Source: a virus
IMG/VR virus record: IMGVR_UViG_3300013004_000043
Span: 1-64,000 of that record
DNA: 64,000 nucleotides
Strand: one strand, 5' to 3'
Part shown: positions 1,121 to 55,733 of the stretch, in pieces
Layout of the letters: each line of letters begins with the position of its first letter
How positions within the stretch are numbered: the first letter of the stretch is position 1
Notes under the pieces: model-generated
Databases searched by the model: none
What the model was told of the DNA's origin: nothing
Seen by the model: only the letters and a program-made list of their open reading frames with translations
Translations under genes and position numbers: made by a program

Positions 1121-1227
1121 TGCGCTATCCTTTAACTAATAGACAAAAGACTAAAAACGTAATTAAGCGTCAGTTCAAACGCTCAAAAACATGCCACACG
1201 CCCGGATTGATAACTACTGTTCCGAGA

Positions 1228-1298
1228 GGACCGAGATGGAATCGAACCATCGCCCAACACTTTAGAGGGGTGCTGCTCTACCACTGAGCTATCGGTCC
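1228..1298 (-). tRNA. tRNA, probable Arg (anticodon UCU), atypical anticodon loop
   Basis: Read on the minus strand, a perfect 7-bp acceptor stem (GGACCGA/TCGGTCC), a 4-bp D stem (GCTC/GAGC) with GG in the loop, and a 5-bp T stem (GATGG/CCATC) with loop TTCGATT are all present. The anticodon arm is odd: the 7-nt loop reads CCTCTAA, so the anticodon is UCU but position 33 is C rather than U, and the closing pair is C-A. An alternative fold has a 9-nt loop. Its 5' half is nearly repeated at 4442-4472. Confidence 0.8.
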
Positions 1299-4836: not shown

Positions 4837-5008
4837 GGGTAGGACTGGAATCGAACCAGCTTTGACCTCGCCAGTCGTTTGCGAGTTGTACTGTCACTAT
4901 GACCGCTTGCGATGCCTCGCATTAAGTCGCCTCAGCTATCGGATTCGACCAAACCGACATACGCTTCAAAGGCTAAAATAGGCATGAATCCAAACATGCT
5001 TCCTACCC
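4837..5008 (-). tRNA. tRNA-like element with long insertion (172 nt)
   Basis: The ends form a perfect 7-bp acceptor stem GGGTAGG/CCTACCC, and the 3' part has a canonical T arm (GCTGG/CCAGT, loop TTCGATT). Near the 5' end a D-like arm GCATG/CATGC encloses a GG-containing loop, followed by a possible anticodon loop CTTTGAA (UUG). About 95 extra nt lie in between, including hairpins CTCGC/GCGAG and GTCA/TGAC and a second T-arm-like stem GTCGG/CCGAT. Two fused tRNA remnants, a tRNA with an intron-like insertion, or a chance pairing are all possible. The gap 4757-4836 shows nothing recognisable. Confidence 0.35.
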
Positions 5009-5124
5009 AAAGAGCAGGGTGTATACTGTGCCTCTCGCACTATGATGCTACCAAAGGACCGTTGCCGATCTCAACCAGCCACCCATCCCGCTTTCCGGTC
5101 TAGGCCACACTCTCCTGCTCAAAA

Positions 5125-5193
5125 GGATCGGGCAGGGCTTGAACCTGCATTTCGACGCACCAAAGGCGCGAGACTTACTTAGTCGACCGATCC
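5125..5193 (-). tRNA. tRNA, probable Gln (anticodon UUG)
   Basis: The minus strand shows a perfect 7-bp acceptor stem GGATCGG/CCGATCC, D stem GACT/AGTC with a short 5-nt loop lacking GG, and an anticodon arm CGCGC-CTTTGGT-GCGTC (four pairs, U33, anticodon UUG). The T arm is standard: GCAGG/CCTGC with loop TTCAAGC. It is 69 nt long. The stretch 5009-5124 holds nothing clear. Confidence 0.75.
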
Positions 5194-5330
5194 TCGCCGT
5201 CTCTCCGGCTGTCTCGTTGTTTAGGCTTCGTGATTTTCAGTTAACTCGGAGTTCATCACCCGAGAACGATCCGTACTCCACGGCCACTCACTGGTAGTCA
5301 CAACGTTTTCACCCGCTATGTAAATCAAAA

Positions 5331-5396
5331 TGACCGTGCGGGGTTCACACCCGCTACTCAAACGTGAAAAGGGTAATACTTGGTGGTATACGGTCC
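5331..5396 (-). tRNA. tRNA, possible Glu (anticodon UUC), short
   Basis: On the minus strand GACCGT pairs with ACGGTC, the D arm is ATAC/GTAT, and the T arm is GCGGG/CCCGC with a non-standard loop TGTGAAC. The anticodon loop TTTTCAC would give UUC, but its stem has two mismatches. At about 66 nt this is a small tRNA and may be decayed. The 5194-5330 stretch contains a hairpin CTCGG/CCGAG (about 5257-5276) but no gene. Confidence 0.45.
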
Positions 5397-5421
5397 TCGC
5401 AACTTAGGCAGTTGCCGCCGA

Positions 5422-5505
5422 AGGTTGAACAGGATTTGTACCTGCGAATCTGCGTTTGTCACGTTGTCTAATGCTAGCCTGTAGCTAGCTTCCGACTTTC
5501 AACCT
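5422..5505 (-). tRNA. tRNA-like element lacking a normal D arm (84 nt)
   Basis: Minus-strand ends AGGTTGA/TCAACCT form 7 bp and the T stem is GCAGG/CCTGT with loop TACAAAT. The strongest internal helix is GCTAG-CTACAGG-CTAGC, a perfect 5-bp stem with a 7-nt loop and U33. It begins only 9 nt after the acceptor strand, leaving no room for a D arm, and 27 nt follow before the T arm. If that loop were the anticodon it would read ACA, which is unusual. Confidence 0.4.
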
Positions 5506-5513
5506 TGTTTCGA

Positions 5514-8454: not shown

Positions 8455-8988
8455 CTAACTGGCAGATTCTTCGGTTCCAAAGTCTTCGGCAGTAACCTCT
8501 AAACCAAGCATTCCTGGTTTAGGCGGAGCAATCGTATCTTTAAGTTCTGTGCTAAAGACACTAGCTTCCGACCGGTTGTCAGCATTATCAATGTCTACAA
8601 GCGACAAAGTAACGCTAGCTCCGTCCGGTCCGCTGAGTGCTGGAACCTCAGACGAGTCGGCGTCAAGCTCGAGCACTTGAATACTACCGTTGATCTCGAC
8701 AGTCAGTTCTCTGGCTACAACGTCAGGAGCAGATTTTGGTGGAAGATAGACGACGAACAAAAGCGAATCAGACATACGGTTTTCTCCTATGATTTGAACC
8801 GTTATTTTACCTGGACCAAGCCTAAACAACAATTTCTTTTGGGTCGCTTCAATCTCATTCAAACGCTTGATTAGATTTCGGTAAAGCAAAAAACGAGTGT
8901 CAGCGGCGACCGTTTGGCTTGAATTAATCAGAAAACAAAATTGCCTGATTTTTTCAAGTTGTTTTCGATTGTAATCAAAAGGCCACAT
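8455..8988 (-). CDS. Two-part protein with a probable internal start (177 aa)
   Basis: The frame from the ATG of MWPFDYNRKQLEKIR gives a helical N-terminal part (about residues 1-71), then an acidic beta-rich part beginning MSDSLLFVVYLPPKSAP. That second methionine (position 8775) has AGGAG 8 nt upstream, a stronger ribosome site than the first ATG. The 106-residue C-terminal part may therefore be made separately or be the only product. It has strands around ELTVEINGSIQVLELDAD and a PPKPGMLGLEVTAEDF tail. No function is recognised. Confidence 0.7.
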   Translation of the reverse strand: MWPFDYNRKQLEKIRQFCFLINSSQTVAADTRFLLYRNLIKRLNEIEATQKKLLFRLGPGKITVQIIGENRMSDSLLFVVYLPPKSAPDVVARELTVEINGSIQVLELDADSSEVPALSGPDGASVTLSLVDIDNADNRSEASVFSTELKDTIAPPKPGMLGLEVTAEDFGTEESAS

Positions 8989-9006
8989 AATAAAGCCTAT
9001 ACGAAA

Positions 9007-9426
9007 CAATCCCGTCTAAGCACAAGACCTAGACGGGATTGTCCGAGATACGGATCACCCCCTTAAAGGTAAATGTACATAGACTGTTTCTACTCCTAGA
9101 AAAGTCAAACGTGCAACAAAAGCAACGCTTCGGCTAATTATAGCTCCGGAAGCGTTGGACTCGATAGATTAAAAGTGAGCTGGTTAGTTACGCCTGGGCT
9201 AAACCCTCGATCGAAACTTGTTGACCACATCAACAGAGGTTTCAGGCTCACCGGGAAGGATGCTGACGCAGACAGTTTAACCCGGAGCAGAACACACTGC
9301 TAATAACTAACCGAAGCACGCATGCGAAGGATTTTACTGCGTCGTGCTTACGTCTCCGTTAGAAGACGCAAGATTGCAAGGCAAAATTGATTAACCTTCG
9401 ACCTTGCAACCACACTCTCACTGTGG
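9007..9426 (-). ncRNA. Candidate structured non-coding RNA (about 420 nt)
   Basis: The gap between the genes at 8988 and 9428 has no reading frame but is tiled with helices. There is a 12-bp stem 9007-9018/9030-9041; 9 bp 9123-9131/9149-9157; and a long-range 9 bp 9182-9190/9304-9312. That long stem encloses nested 9192-9195/9244-9247, 9213-9217/9239-9243 and 9219-9224/9230-9235, plus 9251-9255/9281-9285 and 9286-9290/9297-9301. Further along are 9314-9320/9343-9349, 9351-9355/9364-9368, 8 bp 9374-9381/9402-9409, and 9410-9414/9422-9426. The strand is taken from the neighbouring genes. The first stem, at the RNA 3' end, could terminate transcription. It resembles the large ornate phage RNAs (GOLLD, ROOL) in style only. 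Confidence 0.6.
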
Positions 9427-9427
9427 C

Positions 9428-10087
9428 TTATACTCCTTGTGCTGGCGGAGGCATCATAGGTGGATGCCAATTTTTAGGTGGCTGTGTCGGAGCAACGGGC
9501 GGTTTTGCAGCCGTAGGTGCTCTACCGGTAAACTGACTCAATGCATCCGGGTTCTGCATTAGGTAGTAAATAAGCGGCAAACCGATTGCACCGCCAAATG
9601 CACCGCCGCCACCGCCTAGCATACCCCCACCAGCCGCACCTAACCCCATAGAAGCTATAAGCGGTATCAACCAACTTTTGTTCTGCTCAAACATTCCTGG
9701 CAGGTCGAAACCACCGCCACCACTGTTCATCTTTTCACCTAGCTGCAATAATGGAGCTAGTTTAGGATGCTCAACCATTTTGTTAATCATGTCATCAGTA
9801 GTCGGCATTCCGGCTCGCATAAGTTGACCACCTAAGCCCATACCGACAGCTGTTGAACCTATTGTGTTTGCCGCTCCGCCTACCCAGCTAGGAAGCCACT
9901 TCTTGGCTGCGGCTGGGTCTAAACTCGGTGCAGCTTTAGGTGCTGCGTTTTGAATACCGGTGGAAACAGACTTAACCGCAGGTGCTGCTTTTTGCGATGC
10001 TCCAAATAAGCCAGGTGCATACTTCTGACCTAAATTCTTACCTGCGTTTAGTAAATTTGGAGCGGCTGACCTACCTGCCGATATCAT
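9428..10087 (-). CDS. Gly/Ala/Pro-rich probable virion-associated protein (219 aa)
   Basis: The protein has an Ala/Pro-rich first half, a hydrophobic glycine-rich middle (TIGSTAVGMGLGGQLMRAG, then WLIPLIASMGLGAAGGGM and an AFGGAIGLPLIYYLM helix) that could insert in a membrane, and a Pro-rich tail (PPKNWHPPMMPPPAQGV). ATG at 10087 is the only ATG start near; GGGAGG sits unusually close to it. An upstream TTG start is possible. It overlaps the Nudix-fusion gene by 17 nt. A role as a capsid-internal or DNA-ejection protein is inference. Confidence 0.65.
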   Translation of the reverse strand: MISAGRSAAPNLLNAGKNLGQKYAPGLFGASQKAAPAVKSVSTGIQNAAPKAAPSLDPAAAKKWLPSWVGGAANTIGSTAVGMGLGGQLMRAGMPTTDDMINKMVEHPKLAPLLQLGEKMNSGGGGFDLPGMFEQNKSWLIPLIASMGLGAAGGGMLGGGGGAFGGAIGLPLIYYLMQNPDALSQFTGRAPTAAKPPVAPTQPPKNWHPPMMPPPAQGV

Positions 10088-11054
10088 ACCTCCCAACGGC
10101 GGATAACCTGAACATAGGCTTATTCGAGGGCTGGTAATCGGGTTTAATCGGTGCAAGATCGTTCGCCTTGTCTAACGCAGCAGGCGAACTAAGCGAAGGA
10201 GTACCGAAACCACTTAACTTATCGAACCCAACCTTTAGCTCACTTGCAATCTTCTTACCAAACTTACGCTCTGCCAAATCAATTGCTTGCTTGATTTGTG
10301 TTGCGCTTTGACCTGCTGCAACCATACGACCAAAGAAGCTAGCTTGAAAGTTGTTAAGCCCAGCTCGCTTAAAGCGATCTAGGCTTTCAAACGCTTTTTC
10401 ACCGTTAGCTGTATCTTCAGGATTTATCTTGTACTTGTGTTTACCTTCACCCGTTGCAGACAGGCACATCGACCCGACTTTAGCTAAAGTTTCTTGAATT
10501 CCAGACGTGTCAGCTTTCGTAACGGCGGGAGCTTTCACGCTGGCAAGTGGATTTGGTTTACCGGCTAGTCTAGGTTGGTATGAGCCTGAAAAACGTGGTG
10601 CTAGCGGTAGACCCATTCCAGGTTGCATTGCAGGTAGCATGTTTGCCTCTTTTGTTTGTTTGTTAGCTTTGAGTAACTCTGAAATGTCTGCTTTCAAGGT
10701 ATCGTGACAATCTTCCAACGCATTCATTTGAGCTAGCGTTAACCATTTGTGTTCGTCGTGCTCACTTGGTTCTGTTTTAACATCTGGCTTTGTGCCGCTA
10801 GCCCTAGCCAGAAACAACCGAATACGTTTTCCGTCGCCTGAGCGTTTATTTGTCGTGCCGCCTAGTAATTGTACTGAAAGACCTGTCTCTTCCGCTACCT
10901 CACGCAAGGCTGCGGCACTAGGACTTTCGCCGGAATCACGATGACCTAGCGGCGGTTCCCATTGACCAGCCCTTGTGTTACGCTTGCTTCGACGGATGAC
11001 AAGAAAATTATCAGCTTCGTCAAGCACTACGGTTAGGCAAACATCAGGCTGCAT
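10071..11054 (-). CDS. Nudix hydrolase fused to virion-type domain (327 aa)
   Basis: Residues 1-130 form a Nudix hydrolase, which cleaves nucleoside diphosphates linked to another group. The full signature is present: G37, E43, R51-E52, E55-E56, G58 (GHRDSGE, then REVAEETGL). From about residue 138 (MLPAMQPGMGLPLAPRFSG) the protein changes to a Pro/Ala-rich start and a helical domain with FKRAGLNNFQASFFGRMVAAGQS and IDLAERKFGKKIASELK. An AGAGG site precedes that internal ATG (10640), so the 189-residue C-terminal part may also be made alone. The start at 11054 avoids the tRNA-Thr; its ribosome site is weak. Confidence 0.8.
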   Translation of the reverse strand: MQPDVCLTVVLDEADNFLVIRRSKRNTRAGQWEPPLGHRDSGESPSAAALREVAEETGLSVQLLGGTTNKRSGDGKRIRLFLARASGTKPDVKTEPSEHDEHKWLTLAQMNALEDCHDTLKADISELLKANKQTKEANMLPAMQPGMGLPLAPRFSGSYQPRLAGKPNPLASVKAPAVTKADTSGIQETLAKVGSMCLSATGEGKHKYKINPEDTANGEKAFESLDRFKRAGLNNFQASFFGRMVAAGQSATQIKQAIDLAERKFGKKIASELKVGFDKLSGFGTPSLSSPAALDKANDLAPIKPDYQPSNKPMFRLSAVGRYDIGR

Positions 11055-11082
11055 TTTGCTAAATCTGCTTTTAGGGATTAAA

Positions 11083-11154
11083 GGCCTCGACAGGTTTCGA
11101 ACCTGCAACCTGCTGATTACAAATCAGCTGCTCTACCAGTTGAGCTACAAGGCC
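11083..11154 (-). tRNA. tRNA-Thr (anticodon UGU)
   Basis: A canonical 72-nt cloverleaf on the minus strand: acceptor GGCCTTG/CGAGGCC, D stem GCTC/GAGC with GG in the loop, anticodon arm GCTGA-TTTGTAA-TCAGC, and T arm GCAGG/CCTGT with loop TTCGAAA. It contrasts with the irregular tRNAs at 1.2-5.5 kb. Confidence 0.95.
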
Positions 11155-11160
11155 TTGCAA

Positions 11161-51564: not shown

Positions 51565-52233
51565 CTAAACGACTTCAATCAGCCGCTGCAGCGTTCCGCA
51601 AGGGTCAAGCGGACGCCAATCAGGCTTACGGCTAGAACCCGTAGTGTACATAACATTACCCGCAGTAGTAGCGACACAGCGTGCCCGGTCACGACTGACA
51701 TTATGCTTATCACTACGAGCAGCAATAGACGCATTATCTGCAGCTCTGGCTGCAGCTGTAGCCGCAAACCAAGCCCCGGTAACAGTAGAACTCGAAACAG
51801 ACGCTGCCCTAGCCGCCGCAATGGCAGCATCTGCATTTTTTTCGTTAAGCATCACCCGCCACGGACCGCCGAAACAAAAAATGTCAGCTTCAGACTGAGC
51901 ACGAGGAAGAACCGAGTTCCACATCCAATCTAAAAGCAACTCCAACCGTTCTTTTTCTTTTTTTCGACCTGTGCCAGCCGCTAGAGGAAGCAAAGACTTC
52001 CATTGGCGGCTGTTTCGAATATATGCAGGTATCGCGTCTTGAATCGAAATAATCCAATGACCTATTACCTCGCTCATACAGGCTGGAATGCCATCGTGCA
52101 ATTCACCGGTCAAAGCTAGATTTATCGCCGCAATCGAGCACGCCGATTCATACGATCCAAGTCCCGCGCAAAGCTCCATGCCTTGTACCTTATTTTCAAT
52201 CGCCTTAAATTGGTCCTGTGTTAAATTTTTCAT
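51565..52233 (-). CDS. Conserved unrecognised protein (222 aa)
   Basis: The sequence has a pattern I have seen in uncharacterised phage and bacterial proteins: LCAGLGSYESACSIAAINLALTGELHDGIPACMSEVIGHWII, then QDAIPAYIRNSRQWKSLLPLAAGTGR, LDWMWNSVLPRAQSEAD and an Ala-rich C-terminal helix region with AWFAATAAARAADNASIAA. Function unknown. The start shares ATGA with the polymerase stop (AAAAAATGA). Confidence 0.75.
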   Translation of the reverse strand: MKNLTQDQFKAIENKVQGMELCAGLGSYESACSIAAINLALTGELHDGIPACMSEVIGHWIISIQDAIPAYIRNSRQWKSLLPLAAGTGRKKEKERLELLLDWMWNSVLPRAQSEADIFCFGGPWRVMLNEKNADAAIAAARAASVSSSTVTGAWFAATAAARAADNASIAARSDKHNVSRDRARCVATTAGNVMYTTGSSRKPDWRPLDPCGTLQRLIEVV

Positions 52234-55200
52234 TTTTTTCGCCTTTGTTCGTAAGGTGGTGGTGGGGTCATATCACGTTTAAGTCTGGGTTTTGTGTTAA
52301 AAACCACGGACCTGTCGTCACCAGCTTTAGCCGGTTCACTGTAATGAAAAACGCAGCCTTCGACAATGCCCTGGCCCAACGGTAAACCGTATTTTTTTGC
52401 TTCAGTATCCGTTACTTTCTCGCCCCAGTGCGTCATGACCTCACCTTCAATTCCAAGATAATAGGGTCCTGAACCTGTGGGCTCACCCTCCCTGTCGCCG
52501 GAAATGTAAGTTGGATAAATCGGAACTGATTTTCGCATGTAAGTCGGCAGCACGTACTCGCAAACATGTTTGACATATTTGTACGGCACCTCAAGCAAGA
52601 TCGCATCGTGAACCTGCAGCAAAAGCCTGAACATATCGTGTCCTTGTTTTCGCTGCTTGTCGCGATAATCCATGATGTAGCCTAGCGCTCGGCTTACTAC
52701 GGAAGCAATCATGCTTTGGATTGGAAAGTTCATGGCTTGTCGTTCAAACTCAGCTGCAAGATCACTTGCACCCGAGCTGTCTGGAAACCGTCTAAACCGT
52801 CCAAAGCAATTGCAAAGATATCGTGGCACTTCAACTGGTTGTTGATTTTCATCCAGGTAATAGCCGCGAGCTCTTTCCTTGCAACCTTCAAAAAACGGAA
52901 CAAGGGCTGGGTACGTGTTGAAGATAGTTTTAATTACGGCTTTAGCTTCATCTACCGTAATGTCAATACCTTCCTCTTTTGCGGCGATCGAGATAGCCTT
53001 GGCTCCTCGCCCGTAAGCAATACCGAAAATAACAGACTTGGCTACAATGCGTAGGTGTGTTTTTTCAATGGACTTAAGCCCTGTTTTAGTGGGGGCACAC
53101 TTCAGCCTAAACGCATTAACAGCTACATTTGAATGTATGTCGTAAAAATCAGGATGATTCTCTGGTAGCTGATTACGCTTAGCATGGTCAATCATGTTAA
53201 CATCGCCAGCCATGACCGCCATTCCAAAAAGTTCAGCGCCGACATAGTCCGCCTCAACAAGCACATAACCTGGCGAGGCTTTCAACAAGCTTCTTAGTTT
53301 GTATTTGTACCTAGATTTAAGCAGCCGTTTGAAGTCGTCGTCGCGTTTTTTGGATATATTTTGAAGATTAGGCCTGGCACTTGACCATCGACCTGTTTCC
53401 TTAGTTTGATATATGTGCGTTCGTACTTTTCCGTCCGAGCAACAAGCCGCGGCTAGCCCTTTATCGTACTCCATGTTGCCGTCGTCGTCGTAACAAACTT
53501 CTTTAGTGTCCTCATCGATTGAGGGTGGCCGTAAAACCGTTTTTAACGCTTGATCCAGGAAACGATAATCTCGGATCAATCTAAGCAACGCTTGCTTATT
53601 TTCGTCCTTTATCTCCTGTGCAAGGATAGGAAGAATCTTATTGCTGGTAGACGGATTATGTTGGCTTTCGACTCCTTTTTGTCTGATCTCCTCCCATGGT
53701 TTAGGCGGTTTGCTTGTGTCGTAAAGCGGCATCAAATTCAACGATTTGGCGTCCGCAGGTCTAACCCTAACCGGTGCTCCAGTTTCTTTGTCTCGTTTGC
53801 CGTTTAGTTGGTGCCCAAACAAAGCTTCTCGAAGATGAACAAGAGACCTGATATTAAAATCAGGCCAGTTAAAACTCTTTCGAATCTTTGCTTCGATTTC
53901 GTTTCTACCGTCTACAAATTGCACCGTCAAAAAGTCGACTCTGGCTTTATCGAGTGTTATGCCGTTTCGGTGAATATCCAAAACAGCAGGCGTGGCTATT
54001 TGAGATTCCCAGAAAGCTTCACGGCAGCAGTTACCGTCGTAGTCGCTATCAAGCATGGGATTGAACTTGTAGTACAGCCTAAGTGTGACGTCCGCGTCCC
54101 ACATGCCATAAGGTAAAAGCGTTTCGTTTGGACATTCGCCGTAACCTTCCAGCTCTTCAGACGACAGCCCGTGCTTTTTACAGTACGTTGTTTTCCACTC
54201 CTGCAACGCCGTATCGTACCTTGGAGCGTTTAAGTAACGAGCTGCGAGCAGCTCAAGCTTGTATTGAGCTGTCTCCTCAATTGCGTGACACATAAGTCCC
54301 GTGTCTGCCCCGCCTTCGTACTTAGTTCGGTACCAAGCAGGAACAGTAGAACCAGGCTCAAAACCGTCAGCAAAATAGGCATTAAATAATGCCTTACTGC
54401 CTTTTGGTAGCTTGTCTAATTGCGGTAGCTCGAGATCGTAAAGCTTACATGAAAAACACTCCTGAATGTCAATACCGTATCCAACTAGCCACTCCAAGTC
54501 AGCGTTAAAGAAATGCCCGACAACCCGCTTTCGTTTAAATTGTAAATCAAGCTTTTGTCCGTCTTCGCGTGTAACTGTTACCTTACCACCTTTGAAAAAA
54601 GTAGTCAGAAGAGCAGCTATCTCTGGATCGTTTAAAACGTCCAGTTCCTCGTTTATCGCACCGCCTGCGTGATGCAGAATAATACCGATAGCTTTTTTAG
54701 GTTTCCAAGCTAGCTGTATAGTTCGCATGTAGGAGCCTTTGTTAACCCCGTGCGAACCGTGCCATTCTGCGTCGACCGCAATAACTTCTTCGATCGAAAT
54801 GTACTCTTTATCTATTTCAGTCAAGTAGTAAATCAGCTCGTCAACTGTACTAACTACATTGTGCTGAACGGTCGTATCGAAGCTTACGTCTTTGCCGCTT
54901 GTGAGATTTACAAACGAAGCAATTCCAGTTTCTAAAGATCTAATTGCAGACTGATCTCTGATAGTTTGCCGTGGATGCACAACAGTCATCACGGCAGCTT
55001 CTGACCAGCTATCCGCTACGCTCTCTTTATCTAACGCTGTGTTGTATTTGTACTTGACGACTTTACCTAGCATTTCGTTGACGCCGTGTCCGTCGCCAAG
55101 AAGAGCCTTACTTGCGTCAGTTCCAAGACAAAGAATAAAATCCGGTCTAACTATTTTGATCTCGTGAGCAAGTAGATAAGCACCGTCTTTTACCCACTGC

Positions 55201-55733
55201 GCTCTAAACGTCGTTTTACCGTTTGGAGGCATAAACTTCACAAGATTGGTAACATAAATGCTACCAATGTTAGGAAGCTTAAACTGCTCAAAAAGTTTGA
55301 GCAACATTAAGCCGTCTTCGTCCGCAAAGCACCGTTTTTGATTAAGGGCCGCACCCCATGGATTTTTGTTAATGATCATTATCTTGGCCGGTCGAGGGCC
55401 AGCAACGTCAGCCCCCCACAAGTGCCCAGGAAGAAACTTTACGTCTTTCGTTTGATGTGATGCTATTTCTACCGGCAAAACAAACGAAGAGTCTCGCAAA
55501 GCACTGCGGATAAGCTCGTACATAAACGAGTCACTAGCGTCGCCTCTCGCTTCAGCGTGTTGTGTAAAAGCACTTCCACCGTAAAGCGTAGGTAGTTCCG
55601 GCGAATCTAAAGGATAAATTGCAGAACTAGTTCTAATTTCTGCTAACTTGTTCAGCTTGAATTGCTGTGACTTGACATTAGAACGATTAAGAACGTTTAC
55701 CGTCCCACCTAGTTTTTGTATTTTTCTAGCCAT
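52230..55733 (-). CDS. Family A DNA polymerase with UDG-like and 3'-5' exonuclease domains (1167 aa)
   Basis: Replicative DNA polymerase. Residues 100-275 look like a family 4-type uracil-DNA-glycosylase fold: PAKIMIINKNPWG, IYVTNLVKFMPPNGKTT, PDFILCLGTDASKALLG and VVHPRQTIRD. The exonuclease is intact: Exo I DAEW (Asp321, Glu323), Exo II HFFNADLEW (Asp412), Exo III YGMWD (Tyr542, Asp546). The polymerase has motif A ADYVGAEL (Asp829, Glu834) and motif B RIVAKSVIFGIAYG (Lys899, Phe903, Tyr907). Motif C is VHDA (His1042, Asp1043), where the usual next residue Glu is Ala1044. It is overlapped by the primase gene. The UDG-like active site does not match canonical motifs, so it may be non-catalytic. 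Confidence 0.93.
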   Translation of the reverse strand: MARKIQKLGGTVNVLNRSNVKSQQFKLNKLAEIRTSSAIYPLDSPELPTLYGGSAFTQHAEARGDASDSFMYELIRSALRDSSFVLPVEIASHQTKDVKFLPGHLWGADVAGPRPAKIMIINKNPWGAALNQKRCFADEDGLMLLKLFEQFKLPNIGSIYVTNLVKFMPPNGKTTFRAQWVKDGAYLLAHEIKIVRPDFILCLGTDASKALLGDGHGVNEMLGKVVKYKYNTALDKESVADSWSEAAVMTVVHPRQTIRDQSAIRSLETGIASFVNLTSGKDVSFDTTVQHNVVSTVDELIYYLTEIDKEYISIEEVIAVDAEWHGSHGVNKGSYMRTIQLAWKPKKAIGIILHHAGGAINEELDVLNDPEIAALLTTFFKGGKVTVTREDGQKLDLQFKRKRVVGHFFNADLEWLVGYGIDIQECFSCKLYDLELPQLDKLPKGSKALFNAYFADGFEPGSTVPAWYRTKYEGGADTGLMCHAIEETAQYKLELLAARYLNAPRYDTALQEWKTTYCKKHGLSSEELEGYGECPNETLLPYGMWDADVTLRLYYKFNPMLDSDYDGNCCREAFWESQIATPAVLDIHRNGITLDKARVDFLTVQFVDGRNEIEAKIRKSFNWPDFNIRSLVHLREALFGHQLNGKRDKETGAPVRVRPADAKSLNLMPLYDTSKPPKPWEEIRQKGVESQHNPSTSNKILPILAQEIKDENKQALLRLIRDYRFLDQALKTVLRPPSIDEDTKEVCYDDDGNMEYDKGLAAACCSDGKVRTHIYQTKETGRWSSARPNLQNISKKRDDDFKRLLKSRYKYKLRSLLKASPGYVLVEADYVGAELFGMAVMAGDVNMIDHAKRNQLPENHPDFYDIHSNVAVNAFRLKCAPTKTGLKSIEKTHLRIVAKSVIFGIAYGRGAKAISIAAKEEGIDITVDEAKAVIKTIFNTYPALVPFFEGCKERARGYYLDENQQPVEVPRYLCNCFGRFRRFPDSSGASDLAAEFERQAMNFPIQSMIASVVSRALGYIMDYRDKQRKQGHDMFRLLLQVHDAILLEVPYKYVKHVCEYVLPTYMRKSVPIYPTYISGDREGEPTGSGPYYLGIEGEVMTHWGEKVTDTEAKKYGLPLGQGIVEGCVFHYSEPAKAGDDRSVVFNTKPRLKRDMTPPPPYEQRRKK

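Follow-up and report, generated by a model that had tools for sequence, protein, structure and literature searches.

Does the gene-free stretch at 9007-9426 (minus strand) of this uncultured lake phage specify an RNA, and if it does, on what might that RNA act? The window analyzed here covers 64,000 nt of a 71,684-base virus record, and in it the 420-nt region separates two genes of the minus strand (9428-10156 and 8455-8988). The first-pass annotation had described the region as free of genes, densely folded and a candidate for a structured minus-strand RNA of a new kind. We examined its coding content, its fold, its conservation and its relation to the ribosome.

Coding content, fold and conservation of the region

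The ORFs within 9007-9426 span only 32-42 codons, and none is credible in the standard code. For example, the minus-strand ORF at 9138-9251 is disrupted in the related genome G002, where the alignment shows a lost GTG and an in-frame TAA. Stop-codon recoding was also tried and rejected, since reading TAG as glutamine gives no gene-sized frame; TAG terminates 43 of the 166 long ORFs, although a tRNA with the anticodon CTA is present. The region is thus free of genes under both codes. The CTA tRNA lies at 1226-1298 (-), and a tRNA with the anticodon TCA occurs in G002 (L033:10737-10811, +). In both genomes many long ORFs still terminate at TAG or TGA, so we see no sign of genome-wide recoding.

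The dense folding is likewise borne out. The minus strand folds with -153.5 kcal/mol and a z-score of -6.56, which none of 100 shuffled sequences reaches, and the plus strand folds less well (z -5.65). As background we took 67 windows of 420 nt from the same strand of the near-identical genome G001, of which four have z < -4, with a minimum of -6.8. Fold energy alone is therefore not decisive, and the case for a structured RNA leans on conservation and compensation.

The flanking proteins match only two other contigs in IMG/VR. In the first (G001, 3300034279_001861, 175 kb), the RNA region is identical across 420 nt. In the second (G002, 3300008448_000001, 205 kb), the region is 83-84% identical and the gene order is kept; the two proteins on either side share 65-72% identity, and DNA alignments between the genomes average 73%. 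Conservation begins at the GTGAG strand and extends as far as position 8988, where the next gene starts. It includes an invariant run of 51 nt (9022-9072), the third longest between the two genomes. Another invariant run, of 60 nt, lies on the minus strand of G001 at ~170462-170521, right before a gene start; it holds the inverted repeat GACAGCACGGCTTGCCGTCTGTC and is perhaps a promoter, operator or leader. The NUDIX (10071-11108) and glycine-rich (9428-10156) ORFs, which overlap in the window, form a single ORF of 577 aa in G002 (L003:3672-5405).

Searches for DNA homologues of the region in cultured phages and plasmids gave nothing meaningful, and bacterial genomes searched with two exact patterns gave no match. 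The pattern CTTTAAGGNGGTGATCCG was rejected as a way to homologues, as it matched five unrelated phages, all without the RNA. Distant relatives found through the DNA polymerase (G003-G005) do not show the region, because these fragments probably do not reach the locus; in the polymerase region, G004 and G002 do not differ. In the window, the 1167-aa protein encoded at 52230-55733 (-) is a family A DNA polymerase that also carries a uracil-DNA glycosylase domain at its N terminus.

To assess compensation, we projected the 146 pairs of the fold made from the window sequence alone on G002. The pairs divide into 106 unchanged, nine with a one-sided change, eight compensatory, 18 broken and five with a gap. 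When the same substitutions were redistributed in 2000 replicates, 2.2 compensatory and 28.5 broken pairs were expected, and no replicate reached eight of the former or as few as 18 of the latter. The reverse test, with the fold made on G002, is weaker and points in the same direction (four compensatory pairs, P 0.09; broken pairs, P 0.06). This compensation rests on one independent homologue, G002, whose linker could be aligned only with uncertainty. Covariation in the homologous region, which the annotation had proposed as a check, thus speaks for the helices, and breaks without compensation, named there as a refutation, are fewer than in the null. The other proposed check, an Rfam search, matched no known family with cmscan, either at the gathering thresholds or up to E 10; the snoRNA-type hits are chance hits far below threshold. 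It is well supported that 9007-9426 carries a conserved structured element with helices kept by compensating changes, and its best reading is an RNA with the same orientation as the neighboring genes. The features are collected in Table 1.

Table 1. Features of the locus, with positions in the window, strand and the evidence for each
Feature	Position	Strand	Evidence or remark
Whole conserved non-coding region	9007-9421	-	G002 alignment; fold z -6.56; projection test
5' unit, multibranch domain, ~245 nt	9175-9421	-	Consensus fold
P2, hairpin, GGTTGCAAGG / CCTTGCAATC (9402-9411/9372-9381)	9372-9411	-	Three compensatory pairs relative to G002
P3, variable hairpin, 3 nt shorter in G002	9349-9370	-	MFE; two compensatory pairs, consensus fold
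P4, hairpin	9315-9348	-	MFE and consensus fold
P5, long-range helix GGTTAGTTAT/GTAACTAACC (9303-9312/9182-9191)	9182-9312	-	Consensus fold
GCTATAAT, invariant -10-like element; candidate promoter of 3' unit	9137-9144	-	G002 alignment
3' unit, four hairpins, ~125 nt	9007-9131	-	z -5.33 for 9000-9131; 92% identity with G002
SL1, loop GGAG	9082-9106	-	One compensatory pair
SL2, weak G-U rich hairpin, loop UAAG	9055-9072	-	Fold; partly hides 16S-complementary site
UAAGGGGGUGAUCC, complement of last 14 nt of 16S rRNA, one G-U	9052-9065	-	Invariant in G002
SL3, UCCG-UAUCU-CGGA	9042-9054	-	MFE, consensus fold
SL4, 15-bp terminator-like hairpin, then UUUCGU	9007-9041	-	MFE
Upstream gene, glycine-rich protein	9428-10156	-	Family search: none matched
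Downstream gene (MWPF...)	8455-8988	-	Weak SD, -2.4 kcal/mol; 65% identical in G002

A scan of the gene-free stretches found two long ones that are both conserved and structured, 9007-9426 and 117.1-117.6 kb of G001. The second, unrelated to the first, is a gene-free stretch of ~400 nt (L043:17140-17570, that is G001 ~117.1-117.6 kb, minus; G002:165985-166403; G003:23963-24481) with 86-90% nucleotide identity among relatives. Its minus strand folds with z -6.8 to -7.9, the three-sequence consensus has eight compensated pairs, and it contains the longest invariant run of the genome comparison (61 nt). It has no Rfam match and no complement to the 16S tail. With a second, unrelated structured RNA conserved in these phages, the lineage may therefore rely on RNA more than usual.

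Two apparent units and a complement to the 16S rRNA tail

The 5' unit is closed by the helix GUGAG (9417-9421)/CUCAC (9175-9179), which is followed by UUUUA. Both closing strands are invariant in the alignment with G002 and their flanks are variable; 9165-9418 alone folds with z -4.6. P2 is the clearest case of compensation. The 8-bp helix listed there earlier (9374-9381/9402-9409) is present and has about 10 bp plus an extension. The 9-bp helix that had been proposed to join distant positions (9182-9190/9304-9312) is found as P5, with one compensatory change from A-U to G-C. P5 encloses the helices AGCAG/CTGCT (9297-9301/9286-9290) and CCGGG/CCCGG (9281-9285/9251-9255) and the GCCUGAAAC arm. 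Within P4 lies an invariant palindrome, CGCAUGCG (9319-9326), which is a possible site of self-pairing between two copies.

Between the units, the linker (~9128-9170) has kept neither its sequence nor its fold, with the invariant GCTATAAT as the one exception. Of the coding-strand copies of GCTATAAT, both in G002 and two of the three in G001 lie outside genes, so that a -10 element is plausible; the promoter scan did not score it as a promoter, and no conserved -35 was found. Since the center is not conserved and holds this invariant element, two RNAs, or a domain and a separate 3' unit, appear to fit better than the single RNA of ~400 nt that the first-pass annotation had expected: its structured RNA stands, and its one-piece form is doubtful. 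At the other end of the 3' unit, the U tract behind SL4 is short, the hairpin is absent from the list of the terminator scan, and conservation passes SL4 and reaches the SD of the next gene.

The 3' unit contains a feature that the annotation did not mention, the 14-nt complement UAAGGGGGUGAUCC. In E. coli numbering, the paired stretch of the 16S rRNA starts at 1528 or 1529 and includes the last nucleotide. With -25.3 kcal/mol it is the best site for the 16S tail in 64 kb, counting both strands (next, -20.5), and the top site in the 205 kb of G002 as well (next, -23.1); the other 115 kb of G001 offer no site with this duplex energy. It lies mostly inside the invariant run of 51 nt. Opening SL2 would cost ~7.5 kcal/mol against a gain of 23.6 for the duplex with the 16S tail. 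Unlike an ordinary ribosome-binding site in an mRNA, UAAGGGGGUGAUCC has no start codon 5-10 nt past the SD core: AUC stands at the usual place, and no AUG, GUG or UUG is in reach. The same stretch occurs in two unrelated phage contigs directly before ATG (L050, GATCCGATG; L053, GATCCGTCATG).

The complement was spotted post hoc, and shuffled RNAs reach up to -23.2 kcal/mol at some site of the whole 16S rRNA; its weight therefore lies in the exact 3' tail, the genome-best site and the invariance. With only one independent homologue and no change in it at these positions, the site itself shows no covariation. Pairing of the region with other sites in 16S, 23S and 5S rRNA gave nothing convincing beyond chance. 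A bS21 gene was searched for in the phage and not found. The idea of a CsrA sponge acting through GGA loops was rejected, since inspection gave one clear loop only.

Possible actions on translation initiation

Our leading reading, to which we give a probability of about 0.38, is that the 3' unit RNA pairs with the anti-Shine-Dalgarno tail of the 30S subunit and holds or recruits the subunit. The region would be produced as the 5' multibranch domain and a 3' unit of ~125 nt, the latter probably started by a -10 element of its own and with SL4 as its end. The UAAG exposed in the loop of SL2 would be the first part to pair with the free 3' end of the host 16S rRNA; the weak hairpin would then open, and up to 14 bp could form across the anti-Shine-Dalgarno sequence. 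A bound 30S subunit would be held or recruited and would not initiate there, as no start codon lies behind the site. Where subunits are held, host initiation would be dampened in trans; where they are recruited, phage messages would be favored. The 5' unit may serve as a scaffold or as a module that binds protein or RNA. The genome-best site, its invariance, an opening cost below the duplex gain, the ATG that follows the same stretch in L050 and L053 but not here, the upstream GCTATAAT and the independent folding of the 3' unit argue for this reading; the single independent homologue, the post hoc detection of the complement, the position of the site partly inside SL2, the poor U tract of SL4, the leader-like conservation beyond SL4, the -10 element with no conserved -35 and the failure to find a bS21 gene argue against it. 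The more specific proposal, that a lytic phage uses a small RNA to capture host 30S subunits by pairing with the full anti-SD and so shuts off or redirects host translation, seems rather unlikely.

A close rival, which we regard as possible though doubtful, is that the region acts in cis as the leader of the downstream MWPF gene. A 30S subunit would wait on standby at 9052-9065 and reach the start at 8988 past hairpins that are bridged or opened. The SD at this start is weak in both phages (-2.4 compared with a gene median of -5.9), and the conserved block continues through SL4 to this SD with identical spacing, as a leader would have it. However, looping out SL3 and SL4 still leaves ~20 unpaired nt from SD to AUG, an internal in-frame start at 8775 (SD -7.3) may be the true start, and a leader of 430 nt is unusual for a small gene. 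In a variant of this leader, the 5' domain may tune the start like a riboswitch or attenuator, through pairing of the CUCACUUUU strand with the SD; the competing pairings are near-equal (P1, -7.7; CUCACUUUU with SD, -7.0; SL2, -6.9). A 10/12 promoter lies right before the 5' domain in G002, so one leader transcript is possible; the lack of conservation in the linker between the units speaks against the leader reading. The leader and the leading reading share the ribosome tail as their target, and the difference between them is action in cis or in trans.

We consider it unlikely that the region is one large ornate RNA of the GOLLD or ROOL kind, a scaffold or multimer in which the 16S complement is incidental or holds ribosomes. 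The multibranch fold and the conserved loops resemble such RNAs, the palindromic CGCAUGCG could pair between copies, and GOLLD binds ribosomes in pull-downs according to work cited in PMC12286853. A link to these families, which the first-pass annotation mentioned without making it, nevertheless finds no backing: cmscan detects neither up to E 10, the length is about half that of many GOLLD members, the center is not conserved, and no tRNA array adjoins. The tRNA-Thr to which that annotation pointed is real (11081-11155, 1.7 kb away), but it is separated from the region by genes and is not part of a tRNA island beside the RNA; further tRNAs lie at 5123, 4326 and 1226. A gene-free stretch of ~600 nt at 4898-5513 (-) holds a tRNA-Gln called by ARAGORN and further T-arm-like motifs (GGTTCGATTCC, GGTTCAAGCCC and GGTACAAATCC), possibly degenerate or unusual tRNAs.

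Ordinary translation signals with a terminator are an improbable explanation. The long SD would serve a rare AUC start, or a five-codon minigene (AUG UAC AUU/ACU UAC CUU UAA, 9080-9063) would use the GGAG in SL1. Start, stop and GGAG of the minigene are retained in both phages, but its sole change alters the peptide, and it leaves the 245-nt 5' unit and the invariant 51-nt run unexplained. Least probable is a DNA element rich in inverted repeats, such as an origin or a packaging or recombination site: conservation is strong at the DNA level and the plus strand folds too, but the minus strand folds better, no feature specific to origins came up in passing, the region lies within a run of co-directional genes, and the 16S complementarity and TATAAT are meaningful on the minus strand only.

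Comparison with known systems

Few structured RNAs are known from phages, and most lack an assigned function. This one points to a concrete target that is cheap to test, the 3' tail of the 16S rRNA, which is universally conserved; if the pairing is real, a phage RNA would here intervene in translation initiation. By titles and abstracts, we found no precedent in the open-access literature for a phage RNA that acts on the anti-SD. Like GOLLD, the region is phage-borne, free of genes and elaborately folded, and the likeness may extend to behavior (the ribosome binding cited above) rather than to membership. Many GOLLD RNAs exceed 800 nt (PMC12286853) and lie near tRNA islands, whereas the region has 420 nt and no covariance-model match. 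ROOL is similar as a large structured phage RNA; it differs in that the region has no match to its covariance model and no evidence of a pseudoknot or multimer.

The extended Shine-Dalgarno sequences of the phage mRNAs in L050 and L053 share the CTTTAAGGNGGTGATCCG complement to the 16S tail. There, ATG follows at once, whereas the region has no start codon and a conserved non-coding context. Leaders with a ribosome standby site or a hairpin-spaced SD are known from T4 gene 38 and tisB. The region differs from these in its much greater length, its extra conserved domain of 245 nt and the ~20 unpaired nt between SD and AUG; it resembles them in the succession of a strong site, hairpins and then a poorly marked start codon.
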